A DNA stretch of 64,000 bases, from positions 1,411,501 through 1,475,500 of the forward strand of contig NZ_QFFF01000001.1 of the NCBI RefSeq assembly GCF_003129465.1, given 5' to 3'. Source of the DNA: Sphingosinicella humi. Its GTDB lineage: Bacteria; Pseudomonadota; Alphaproteobacteria; Sphingomonadales; Sphingomonadaceae. Position numbers and translations under genes: made by a program. Shown here piece after piece: positions 41,359-54,565 of this stretch. Under the pieces are notes generated by a model. That model was not told the origin of the DNA. It did not search any database and saw only the letters and a list, made by a program, of their open reading frames with translations. Each line of letters starts with the position of its first letter. The first letter of the stretch is position 1.

Positions 41359-42714
41359 TCAGATCAGGATTCGGAACAACGCTCCGCCAGCCTCGCTGGT
41401 CGCGAGATCGATCGAGCCGCGGTGGCCGAGGACGATCTGGCGGGCGAGGCTGAGGCCCACGCCGGTCCCCTTCTCCTTGGTCGTGAAGAAGGGAAGGAAG
41501 ATGTCGTGGCGGAGCGTCTCCGGCACGCCGGGGCCATTGTCCGCCACCTCGATCTGGACGCGCCGGCTTCGGGTTTCGGCGAAGGATAGCGACACGGCCG
41601 GTGCGTCGCTGTGCGCCCTGGCGGCTTCAGCGGCGTTGCGCATCAGATTTATGAGGACCTGCGCCAACAGATCGGGGTCGGCGTCTATGGTGAGGTCGTC
41701 GCGCGAGACCTCGAGCGCAAAGGTGACGCCGGCGCTCGCCTCGCCGGCGCGGAACAGCGCCTCCAGCTCGCGCGCCCAGGGCAGAATCTCGAAGACGCGG
41801 CGCCGAATCTCGGGGGTGCGGCTGATCTGGCGGTAGCTTTCGACGAAGTGCATGACGCCGTCGGCTCGGCGGGCGAGCGTTTCGACCGCCGCTCGTGCAT
41901 CGGCGATGTCGCGGTCGTCGCCCTTGTCGACCTCGGCCATCAGACCCGCCGCCGTCTGCGCCAGCGACGTGACCGGGGTCATGCTGTTCATGATTTCGTG
42001 GGTGAGGACGCGCACCAGGTCGCTTTGCGCTGCGATCTCGACCGCGTTCAGCTCGCCCTGGATCGGTTGTATGGCGACCACGCGGACCCGGCTGCCGAGG
42101 CGGTGCACCAGCGCGGCGCTGATCATCGCAGTCTGAGGCACGCTGTCGATGGTCAAGGGGACGAGCCGGGGCCGTCCGACGGAGGCGTCGGCGAGGCTCT
42201 TGGCGAAGGCATCGCCATATTCGGCGAAATCCTCGATCCGAACGCCGCTATGGCGGACGAGCAGGCGGCGGGCGGCCTTGTTGGCGAGCTCGACCTTGCC
42301 TTCGGCATCGATGGTGAGGAGGGCGGTCGGCGCGTCGTCGAGCACAGCCTCGAAGAAGCGGGTGTCATCGCTGAGGCGAAGGCGCTCGTCGCGGAGGCGG
42401 CGCATGCCTTCCTCCAACGCTTCGCCGAACTCGCTGAAGCCGCTGCCTTCATGGCGGTGGGTGAAGTTCTGTGAGAAATCGCCGAAGCGCACCGCATCGA
42501 CAAAGCGCGCCAGCTCGACATTGGTGCGCTGGATGAAGCGCCAGAGGCCCGCGATCGCGCCGGCGCAGAGCAGGGCCGCGAGGAGCCGCGCCGCGCCGAG
42601 GCCCTCAAGGCTCAATGACCAGACGAACAGGAAAGCCGCCAGTAGCAGCACCATCACCCGCCACAGCAGGCCGAGGATGAAGCGGCGCTTAAAGCCCATG
42701 GCGGGCGCTCTCAC
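41359..42714 (-). CDS. NtrB/NtrY-like sensor histidine kinase
   Basis: The 451-residue kinase has two N-terminal membrane helices (about 15-35 and 40-60), a HAMP-like linker, a PAS-like domain (about 125-220) and a DHp helix with the phospho-acceptor histidine (VLTHEIMNSMTPVTSLAQTA). The ATP-binding domain has N (NLMRNAAEAA), G1 (DNGPGVP) and G2 (GTGVGLSLA) boxes. There is almost no periplasmic loop, so it would sense at or within the membrane. GTG 42714 overlaps the regulator stop as GTGA, so the pair is co-translated. Confidence 0.93.
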   Translation of the reverse strand: MRAPAMGFKRRFILGLLWRVMVLLLAAFLFVWSLSLEGLGAARLLAALLCAGAIAGLWRFIQRTNVELARFVDAVRFGDFSQNFTHRHEGSGFSEFGEALEEGMRRLRDERLRLSDDTRFFEAVLDDAPTALLTIDAEGKVELANKAARRLLVRHSGVRIEDFAEYGDAFAKSLADASVGRPRLVPLTIDSVPQTAMISAALVHRLGSRVRVVAIQPIQGELNAVEIAAQSDLVRVLTHEIMNSMTPVTSLAQTAAGLMAEVDKGDDRDIADARAAVETLARRADGVMHFVESYRQISRTPEIRRRVFEILPWARELEALFRAGEASAGVTFALEVSRDDLTIDADPDLLAQVLINLMRNAAEAARAHSDAPAVSLSFAETRSRRVQIEVADNGPGVPETLRHDIFLPFFTTKEKGTGVGLSLARQIVLGHRGSIDLATSEAGGALFRILI

Positions 42715-44105
42715 AGCCCATGCTTGTCCATGCGGCGATAGAGGGAGGCGCGGGTGAGGCCGAGCTCGGCGGCGGCAAGCGAGATATTGTAGGCGTGCTT
42801 CTTGAGCGCCGCTTCGACCATGTGCCGCTCCGCCCGATCGAGATTGAGATCGCCGCCGTTGGCGGTCGCCGGGGTTGGTGGGGTTTTCGGCGCGCCGCTC
42901 CGCGACAGGGAGAAATCCTCGACGGTGAAGCTATCTTCGCCGGCTAGGATCACGGCGCGCTCAGCGGCGTGGCGCAGGGCCCGGACGTTGCCCGGCCAGT
43001 CATAGCTTTCCAACGCCATCGCCACGTCGTCGGGAAGGGCTCGCTCGGGCTTACCATACTTCTTCGAATAGACGGCGATGAAATGATCGACGAGGAGCAG
43101 AATGTCCTCGCGTCGTTCGCGGAGCGGCGGCAGCTCGATCTCGACGGTGTTGAGACGGAACAGCAGATCCTGGCGGAACAGGCTTTCGTCGGCGAGCCGC
43201 TCCGGCGGCAGGTTGGTCGCGGCGACGACGCGGATGTCGATCGGCACCGGCTTGTTCGACCCTACGGGGATCACCTGCCGCTGCTCGAGCGCCGTCAAAA
43301 GCTTCGGCTGCAGGTGGAGCGGAAGGTTGCCGACCTCGTCCAGGAAGAGCGTGCCCCCGTCGGCCGCCTGAAGACGCCCAACGCGGTCGCCGCGGGCGTC
43401 GGTGAAGGCGCCCTTCACATGGCCGAACAGCTCGGATTCAAACAGATTCTCGGCGACGGCGCCGAGATCGACGGAGACCAGCACCCCGTCGGCTCGGCGG
43501 GAGCGACGGTGAATCTCGCGCGCGACCAGCTCCTTGCCGGTGCCGTTCTCGCCGAGGATGAGGACATTGGCCTCGGTGGGCGCGGCGCGCTCGATCAGCG
43601 AGAAGACGCGCTGGATGGCAGGCGACTTGCCCAGCAGCGGCGTCTCGCCGCTGGGGGGCTGGGCGATGGCGGCGGCGCGCCTGCGCTCGGTGCTCGCCGT
43701 CTCGCGCGAGTTGCGAAGGGCCGCGGCGGTGCGGACCGTCGCCAGCAGCCGCTCGTTCGACCAGGGCTTGGAAACGAAGTCGGTGGCGCCGCGCTTCATC
43801 GCTTCGACCGCGATCTGCACGCCGCCATGGGCGGTGATCATCACCACCACCGCATCGGCATCGCGCTTCAATATCTCGCCGAGCCAGTGGAAGCCCTCGG
43901 CGGCGTTGGTGGCGCCGCGGCCGAAATTGGCGTCGAGGAGGATGACGTCGGGCAGCCGCTCCTCCATGGCCGCCATCGCCTCTTCCGGCGCCTGGAAGAC
44001 GGCGACCTCCTCGAACAGGTCGCGCAGCAGCAGCCGCGCCGACAGCAATATGTCCGGATCATCATCGATGATGATGCATCGCGCGAATGTGGATCCCCGC
44101 TTCAC
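42711..44105 (-). CDS. Sigma-54-dependent response regulator (NtrC family)
   Basis: The 464-residue activator has a receiver domain (IIIDDDPDILLS, phospho-acceptor Asp in VILLDANFGRG, FVSKPW), an AAA+ domain with GENGTGKE, GGTLFLDEVGNLP and FRQDLLFRLN, and a C-terminal Fis-type helix-turn-helix (LAAAELGLTRASLYRRMDKHGL). The sigma-54 contact loop reads GAFTDA instead of GAFTGA. I start at GTG 44105 with AGGAG and GGAG upstream. It is divergent from the small peptide gene and the export operon, both with sigma-54 promoters and shared palindromes, which are its likely targets. Confidence 0.93.
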   Translation of the reverse strand: MKRGSTFARCIIIDDDPDILLSARLLLRDLFEEVAVFQAPEEAMAAMEERLPDVILLDANFGRGATNAAEGFHWLGEILKRDADAVVVMITAHGGVQIAVEAMKRGATDFVSKPWSNERLLATVRTAAALRNSRETASTERRRAAAIAQPPSGETPLLGKSPAIQRVFSLIERAAPTEANVLILGENGTGKELVAREIHRRSRRADGVLVSVDLGAVAENLFESELFGHVKGAFTDARGDRVGRLQAADGGTLFLDEVGNLPLHLQPKLLTALEQRQVIPVGSNKPVPIDIRVVAATNLPPERLADESLFRQDLLFRLNTVEIELPPLRERREDILLLVDHFIAVYSKKYGKPERALPDDVAMALESYDWPGNVRALRHAAERAVILAGEDSFTVEDFSLSRSGAPKTPPTPATANGGDLNLDRAERHMVEAALKKHAYNISLAAAELGLTRASLYRRMDKHGL

Positions 44106-44158
44106 GGCTCCGACTCCTAAACCCTGGATGATGGGGCACAAACAATTTCCATGCCAGC

Positions 44159-54313: not shown

Positions 54314-54322
54314 AAAGCTCCT

Positions 54323-54565
54323 ATGACCGCACTCGTCTGGGCGGCCGCCGCCCTCGCCATCACCTCGATCGTCAGCGTCGCCCTTCTCAGAGGCTGGCGC
54401 GGCTGGCTCGACCTCAAGCGCTACGAGATCGCCGCCGACCGTTCCGGACCGGAGCCGGAGCCGGAGCCGGAGGATGATACCTCGTCGGGCCTGCGCATCG
54501 AAATGGCCGACATCCGCGAGCGCCTACGCAAGCTGGAGGCGATCGCCACCGGAGTCGATCTCTGA
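54323..54565 (+). CDS. Small single-helix membrane protein
   Basis: The 80-residue protein has one N-terminal helix (VWAAAALAITSIVSVALL), a basic stretch, an acidic EPEPEPEDD segment and a C-terminal helical stretch (IEMADIRERLRKLEAIA) that could form a coiled coil. It starts 9 bases after permease 3 and is probably the last gene of the export operon. It resembles the PspB/small-envelope-sensor type only in layout; no family is recognised. Confidence 0.7.
   Translation: MTALVWAAAALAITSIVSVALLRGWRGWLDLKRYEIAADRSGPEPEPEPEDDTSSGLRIEMADIRERLRKLEAIATGVDL

Follow-up and report, generated by a model that had tools for sequence, protein, structure and literature searches.

What does an NtrC-type two-component system control when it is encoded opposite a tiny gene and an exporter of the MacB kind, and what does the product of the tiny gene do? 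The question is raised by a segment of a 64,000-nucleotide stretch of the Sphingosinicella humi genome, hereafter referred to as the window, which corresponds to C1:1411501-1475500 of a genome of 3.03 Mb in 4 contigs. The explanation of the whole that we favor, and to which we give an even chance, is a sigma-54-controlled envelope export through TolC, with a membrane micropeptide as modulator. The open reading frames (ORFs) and protein families of the segment are as described in the initial annotation: a kinase and an NtrC-type activator on the minus strand face the gene of a small peptide and an exporter operon on the plus strand, the latter consisting, by Pfam and NCBIfam, of an adaptor, one ATPase, three FtsX-type permeases and a small ORF. 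The individual elements are the following.

41359..42714, minus strand: sensor histidine kinase (Pfam HATPase_c and PAS_8), two membrane helices at the N-terminus, joined by a short loop; start probably near 42699, at a conserved MGF
42711..44105, minus strand: NtrC-type sigma-54 activator (Response_reg, Sigma54_activat, HTH_8); presumed GTG start near 44105
44160..44196, plus strand: activator site pair 1, palindromes at 44160 and 44181; such pairs are conserved in relatives
44262..44277, plus strand: -24/-12 element TGGCACGGCTGATGCT of the small gene
44320..44508, plus strand: small ORF of 62 amino acids, membrane helix (residues 1-28) and variable tail
44516..44552, plus strand: activator site pair 2, sites at 44516 and 44537
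44607..44622, plus strand: -24/-12 element TGGCACGGCCCTTGCC of the exporter operon
44649..45959, plus strand: periplasmic adaptor (membrane fusion protein), HlyD_3 and related models; TIGR01730 RND_mfp over its cut-off
45975..46655, plus strand: ABC ATPase, DarD/MacB/LolD-like (Pfam, NCBIfam)
46771..49269, plus strand: permease P1, double MacB-type, two MacB_PCD and two FtsX stretches
49282..51789, plus strand: permease P2, double MacB-type, two MacB_PCD and two FtsX stretches; structure modelled
51809..54313, plus strand: permease P3, double MacB-type, two MacB_PCD and two FtsX stretches
54323..54565, plus strand: ORF of 80 amino acids closing the operon, a single hydrophobic segment by eye

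The more likely start of the adaptor is ATG 44649 rather than 44631, because the latter lies close to the inferred transcription start; for P1, ATG 46771 is the more likely one.

The argument for a common control starts from the two plus-strand promoters. Both site pairs of the window follow the palindrome consensus (T/C)GTCCG-N4-CGAAC(A/G) with a spacing of 21 bp, and the -24/-12 elements at 44262 and 44607 start 65 and 54 bp, respectively, past the second site of their pair. Taken singly, motifs with 1–2 mismatches are unremarkable in the 64 kb, where 10 palindromes were found for 6.4 expected and 2 -24/-12 elements for 1.6 expected; what is improbable is their occurrence in combination. From 149 loci taken for comparison, 145 have the activator by rule (L108, L237, L243 and L246 were set aside) and 108 were left after removal of near-copies. 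A strict site pair is present in 104 of these 108 loci (0.0 in dinucleotide shuffles), a strict -24/-12 element likewise in 104 (shuffle mean 1.05) and the complete unit, i.e., site pair plus -24/-12 element, in 81 (shuffle 0.0), the looser rules yielding 105 loci for the site pair and 106 for the -24/-12 element; the claim of the initial annotation that both plus-strand units carry -24/-12 promoters and the same paired palindromes is borne out by this conservation. Among the 164 pairs with a spacing within 17–26 bp, the spacing is 20 or 21 bp in 140, that is two helical turns, as would be expected for tandem dimers lying on one face of the DNA. The strict rules gave 4 units in 1040 control upstream regions. 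Eleven units lying outside the presumed cluster coordinates all turned out to belong to the cluster, ten before the slot gene (the small ORF or its positional equivalent) or the adaptor and one before the activator of L141, units inside the presumed coordinates being counted as cluster units without individual listing; in 80 named loci the strict units found are within the cluster. Since conserved site pairs and -24/-12 elements are found at both plus-strand units, the sequence supports their government by one activator, and the regulon architecture as described is very probably correct. The genome has one match for the sigma-54 (RpoN) gene. In Sandaracinobacteroides hominis (L141, near 9882) one site-pair unit points towards the gene of the activator, which suggests that autoregulation is possible in that organism.

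How old this arrangement may be is indicated by its distribution. Among 149 genomes of the family there are 22 activator orthologues besides that of S. humi, with 65–76% identity, the next matches listed having 46% or less. Adaptor and ATPase lie divergent from the activator in all 22 loci, the kinase is present in 21 (all except L055), and 21 have a permease, the exception being L063, whose contig stops before that point. Three loci (L047, L053, L057) have a more distant exporter (adaptor 39%); in L047, whose exporter is of this more distant subfamily, the activator of G134 (L047:3001-4290) has one internal TAG. At a threshold of E 1e-150 or better the activator was matched in 61 of 397 Sphingomonadaceae genomes and in 25 of 96 genera, own included, and 9 of 11 genomes drawn from the same genus have the system. 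A scan of genome contigs with the alignment of the adaptor yielded 265 confirmed relatives, of which the 80 best were retained. This sample is therefore ranked by similarity; the activator adjoins the adaptor in 79 of the 80 (L108 is cut). At the level of the class, 8 of 385 genomes besides the own have an activator match at E 1e-110 or better (52–57% identity), none of them in the family. In four of these eight loci the genes for adaptor, ATPase and permease run divergently from that of the activator; L250 shows an ATPase and a permease, and L254, at a contig end, an adaptor. Site pairs at 19–24 bp recur in L249, L250, L252 and L254, and no slot ORF of the Sphingomonadaceae kind was recognised by eye in any of the eight. 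The kinase/activator–exporter layout is thus, to judge from the sequences, old in the Sphingomonadaceae.

Is the regulon confined to these two units? The initial annotation had called it self-contained, a qualification that has to be given up because an unlinked operon carries a matching unit. Elsewhere in the S. humi genome, beyond the window, two site pairs were conspicuous. One of them (C1:2474329/2474349), with a -24/-12 element TGGCACGGCTCTTGCT at 2474407, precedes a gene for PCMT and then tolC, these two genes being identified as PCMT and OEP by Pfam. PCMT was sought in 30 genomes, 22 with and 8 without the activator; the scan covered the 21 that had a match at E 1e-30 and left aside the 9 that had none (2 with the activator, 7 without). 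A further 28 named activator-bearing genomes, in all of which PCMT was matched, brought the total to 49 upstream regions. The strict unit lies upstream of PCMT in 14 of the 49 (13 of 48 besides the own; shuffles 0), namely in S. humi, G081, G012 and 11 of the 28 named genomes, and looser units occur in L159, L178 and L184; G001, the sole scanned genome without the activator, has none. Two cultured environmental sphingomonads, Sphingomonas horti MAH-20 and S. changbaiensis NBRC 104936, carry both the locus and the tolC unit. Visual inspection of the other 20 loci of the first set suggests that the gene following PCMT encodes an efflux channel in most of them. The 13 of these 28 with a strict or loose unit have an estimated permease number of 1 to 3.7, estimates that are limited by locus length. 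It is therefore highly probable, on the grounds of these promoter sequences, that tolC belongs to the regulon in the clade of the window, and since a tolC operon under a matching unit supplies an exit channel, outward export is the likelier direction of transport. Two other places in the genome are mentioned for completeness: a site pair with a weak -24/-12 element TGGCCCGGTCCTTGCA on the minus strand near C1:2606880 (L013:4415-4322), with no clear target gene, and a -24/-12 element near C1:1298668 (L151:5329-4960) preceding a 35-amino-acid one-helix ORF and then a gene that we take to be PspC-like, 145 bp upstream of which element is a single site identical to window site 44181. Neither place is counted among the regulon members.

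What kind of exporter is this? The initial annotation had called it MacAB-like, in agreement with the MacB_PCD and FtsX domains found by Pfam and with the MacB/YbbAP fold of the P2 model. Profile searches of the PDB with the adaptor gave MexJ (E 7e-21) and MacA chains (E 1.3e-17 to 3.6e-17). The P2 model (mean pLDDT 75.4) matches YbbAP best, followed by MacB, LolCDE and BceAB, its TM-scores by query length (0.12–0.44 among the matches shown) speaking for the fold class and not for detail. The three permeases are 64% (P1–P2), 51% (P1–P3) and 52% (P2–P3) identical; in a midpoint-rooted tree that combines P1, P2 and P3 with 80 permease ORFs (38 loci, picked by hand), P1 and P3 cluster with permeases from other species (ten in each case, support 0.97 and 1.0, respectively) and P2 with a permease of L046 (support 1.0). 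Because each of the three groups with permeases of other loci, the copies are not recent, and since the copy number across loci goes from 1 to at least 4, three is one state among several. The 80-residue ORF matches no family in Pfam or NCBIfam; it has relatives 3′ of the last permease in L071, L072, L089 and L098 and in 7 of 8 same-genus loci, L227 being the one without, two of these loci coming from the same genomes as L072 and L098. About 1 kb past the end of the window there is another MacB_PCD protein (L005, C1:1476582-1477184; open frame of 969 residues).

With MacA-MacB-TolC the system shares the adaptor, the MacB-type permease domains, the ATPase and, to judge from its promoter, a co-controlled tolC; however, the ATPase is here separate, whereas in MacB proper it is fused to one permease half, and each permease consists of two fused halves of MacB type and occurs in one or several copies, with sigma-54 control and a micropeptide in addition. 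E. coli YbbAP (9ge6), which the P2 model matches best in fold over its length, likewise has two halves and a separate ATPase, but the present system differs from it in having an adaptor, a link to tolC, two-component control and several permeases, and the identity is 13% at a TM-score of 0.44. Among the named NCBIfam models, those of the darobactin exporter and ADOP, i.e., DarC, DarD and ADOP, score best for adaptor, ATPase and permeases, respectively, yet all remain under their curated cut-offs (DarB 85–98 of 700, DarC 191 of 450, DarD 273 of 375, ADOP TIGR03434 307–323 of 622 for the permeases), the general adaptor model TIGR01730 being the only one that passes. That the machinery serves lipoprotein or lipid trafficking of the Lol type instead of export through TolC, as the initial annotation suggested and as the match of the permease fold to LolCDE would allow, is very unlikely in view of an adaptor of the MacA/MexJ kind and of the apparent co-control of tolC in the clade of the window.

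The kinase bears on where the signal is perceived. In 74 of 81 loci (80 plus the window) the kinase match was long enough for hydropathy analysis, and the mean profile of these 74 aligned sequences displays two hydrophobic segments with a short loop between them; the kinase is thus predicted to have two membrane helices and no periplasmic domain. A kinase without an extracytoplasmic domain encoded with a MacB-family transporter is also a feature of BceRS-BceAB of the Firmicutes, where, according to parts of the literature, BceAB works with its kinase, the small VraH modulates VraDE (PMC5985334) and BceS, devoid of an extracellular domain, is controlled by BceAB (PMC7828314). By this precedent the permease itself would sense a compound and pass the signal on to the kinase by way of the membrane, with the micropeptide in a secondary role; the joint encoding of kinase, activator and exporter, the co-occurrence of the activator with parts of an exporter at 6 of the 8 loci from other families and the occurrence of BceAB/BceABS among the fold matches of P2 speak in the same sense. 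On the other hand, the cytoplasmic PAS domain of the kinase could do the sensing, BceAB has no adaptor (in the relevant part of PMC5985334), no kinase was seen beside the activator in L055/L149, and L247 and L248, from another family of the class, have activator and kinase but no exporter in the 18 kb fetched. The output also differs, being of the NtrC/sigma-54 type here, as do the PAS domain, the adaptor, tolC and the two periplasmic permease domains, BceB having one large domain. Sensing by the permease is accordingly a possibility that we regard as somewhat doubtful.

As to the small gene, the initial annotation held that it encodes a secreted cysteine peptide and made its conservation beside the operon a test of this reading. 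Its place is indeed kept: an ORF following the rules for this slot (25–140 amino acids, hydrophobic start, Shine-Dalgarno-like sequence, -24/-12 element 8–75 bp upstream; rules set after viewing the loci) is found in 87 of 106 promoter-bearing loci, against 2.65 when the stretch between promoter and adaptor is shuffled, the ORFs of L124, L128, L135, L137 and L142 failing the Shine-Dalgarno rule and not being counted. What is not kept is the sequence beyond the helix. With a loose threshold, similarity sorts the 87 ORFs into 30 clusters. All nine same-genus genomes with the system have the ORF, with 62 residues in the window and 31, 47, 55, 28, 27, 27, 27 and 30 in L222–L229, so that forms of 27–31 residues make up six of these eight; residues 1–28 align and the rest hardly. 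The ratio pN/pS, which with pS near saturation serves only for comparing frames and regions, is 0.45 in frame and 0.78 and 2.67 out of frame in the 27-residue group (6 sequences), and 0.63 in frame and 0.88 and 1.49 in the other frames in the window type (8 sequences); in a nine-sequence set it is 0.70 over the first 30 columns, then 1.03 and 0.93, and the tail has no third-position excess (differences by codon position 0.66, 0.74 and 0.60; 7 sequences). A structure model of the 62-residue product (mean pLDDT 60, 7 sequences) has one helix from residue 3 to 25 (block means 78, 90 and 67), the pLDDT of residues 31–62 being below 50 throughout. Cysteines are absent from L071–L073 and from five of the six 27–31-residue forms, L229 having one inside the helix; tail cysteines occur in L074, L075, L079, L083 and L224. 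With same-genus forms down to 27 residues and with the tail and its cysteines variable, the product is better read, from sequences and model, as a membrane micropeptide made of one helix and a free tail than as a secreted cysteine peptide. That such a micropeptide is a modulator has slightly less than an even chance.

Several apparent signals in the small ORFs call for caution or were discarded. A tblastn match in G146 (E 1e-4), the sole one besides the peptide itself in the 149 family genomes, lies in a longer, different ORF in another context and is attributed to chance, short matches having been obtained in the later loci L074, L075 and L222. The FDSG..CP.SN with which many slot ORFs of Sphingomonas terminate is the operon site pair read in translation where it overlaps the ORF end, and the final GTPLA of the L064 ORF likewise comes from in-frame reading of the -24/-12 element of that locus. 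The slot ORFs end in Ala or Leu in 56 of 87 cases (26.9% of 1138 longer ORFs; mean over the 30 clusters 0.60), several ends in different clusters reading P-x-L-A, an excess that relatedness, site overlap or hydrophobic ends could produce.

Could the peptide nevertheless be the cargo, exported by Sec and ejected via adaptor, permease and TolC as a signal or a bacteriocin-like product? MacB works from the periplasm, and STII reaches MacB by Sec and leaves the cell by MacAB-TolC, as stated in parts of PMC5985334; moreover, the peptide has a hydrophobic N-terminal segment with a plausible cleavage site, its gene is apparently co-controlled with exporter and tolC, and the slot proteins of some relatives are UrcA proteins with a signal peptide. 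The cargo or signal role that the initial annotation had considered for the cysteine peptide is contradicted, however, by the unconserved tail, which leaves no conserved mature part, by close relatives without cysteines and by the 27–31-residue forms, which leave little or nothing to export; we therefore deem it improbable. Little can also be said for a mere leader whose translation or translocation would tune the operon in cis: the ORF lies just upstream of the adaptor, and a single promoter precedes both in some loci (e.g., L056, L060), but the operon of the window is equipped with separate sites and a separate promoter downstream of the ORF, and this explanation has a very slender chance.

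The UrcA proteins suggest where the micropeptides may come from. Twenty slot ORFs, chosen by eye as UrcA-like or peptide-like, were scanned, and 13 match TIGR04433 over its cut-off, L147 remaining under it (18.4, cut-off 25); the unscanned slot ORF of L057 clusters with that of L053. Twelve slot ORFs were compared with 160 background N-termini: L060, L063, L147, L138 and L056 scored above all of them and the other seven did not. L060/L063 (43 residues) and L147 (65 residues) align with the UrcA start of L065 and L052 better than 160 of 160 background N-termini, and the same loci group with L065 and L052 in the activator tree (support 0.78, or 0.97 when L218 is included). The UrcA domain thus seems to have been lost nearly to the signal peptide once and shortened once, the direction of change being inferred from the sequences. 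The window peptide was considered as another shortened UrcA and rejected as such, 3 of 160 background N-termini scoring equally high and no similarity to TIGR04433 being seen; Caulobacter UrcA accordingly shares its family with the slot proteins of some relatives and not with the window peptide. The S. humi genome has four UrcA matches elsewhere. The function of UrcA is unknown and Caulobacter urcA is under UzcR, according to part of PMC8963506.

Taken together, the explanation favored here, sigma-54-controlled export with a micropeptide modulator, would work as follows. Envelope stress would cause the kinase to activate the NtrC-type regulator, which would turn on three units: the small gene, the adaptor–ATPase–permease operon and the PCMT-tolC operon. 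ATPase, MacB/YbbAP-type permease and adaptor would then drive a compound from the periplasm or the membrane surface out through TolC by mechanotransmission, and PCMT may repair damaged proteins. With less certainty, the 62-residue micropeptide, of which residues 1–28 would matter and the tail be dispensable, would not be cargo and might modulate either the kinase, as MgrB modulates PhoQ, or the permease. For the latter there is a parallel in AcrZ, which acts on AcrB (in part of PMC7267776).

Several observations weigh against this explanation. The PCMT-tolC unit is not found, even loosely, in 15 of the 28 named genomes, ten of which have one permease and five two or more, and it is apparently specific to the window's clade and some others rather than family-wide. 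There are just 3 invariant columns among 7 window-type peptides, a V-x-A follows the window helix so that signal-peptide cleavage is possible, and the near-saturation of pS burdens the ratios. In another clade (6 sequences) pN/pS is 0.71, 0.58 and 0.36 from the N- to the C-terminus and in a further one, where the ORF end overlaps the sites, 0.80, 0.70 and 0.66. Since constraint is not strongest at the N-terminal part in these other clades and some slots hold full UrcA proteins, the slot products need not all share one function.

Searches among open-licence PMC papers listed no account that describes the system. The nearest is PMC12316311 (2025), which in part reports a computed enrichment of sigma-54 promoters at COG0577 FtsX-like permeases in gamma-Proteobacteria, Opitutia and Bacteroidia and presents this as first evidence of such a link; 'sphingomon' occurs nowhere in its text, and the parts of it examined mention neither a micropeptide nor tolC.

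What does the locus mean for these bacteria? Three promoters and one site pattern define a testable regulon for this type of exporter, tie tolC to it and provide a regulatory setting for some UrcA proteins. The system may, though we consider it rather doubtful, correspond, in Gram-negative bacteria and under sigma-54, to antibiotic sensing coupled to a transporter. In this reading the co-induced micropeptide would serve for coupling or feedback between a kinase that has no domain outside the cell membrane and an exporter of the MacB/YbbAP type acting with TolC, and a signal peptide outliving the UrcA protein of the slot would be the origin of a micropeptide. The slot products form a natural series from a full secreted protein to a bare helix, of use for studying the origin of micropeptides and their action on kinases and transporters; if the reading is true, the slot would show how micropeptides may arise, UrcA having apparently been cut back under the same promoter in two clades, and once nearly to its signal peptide.

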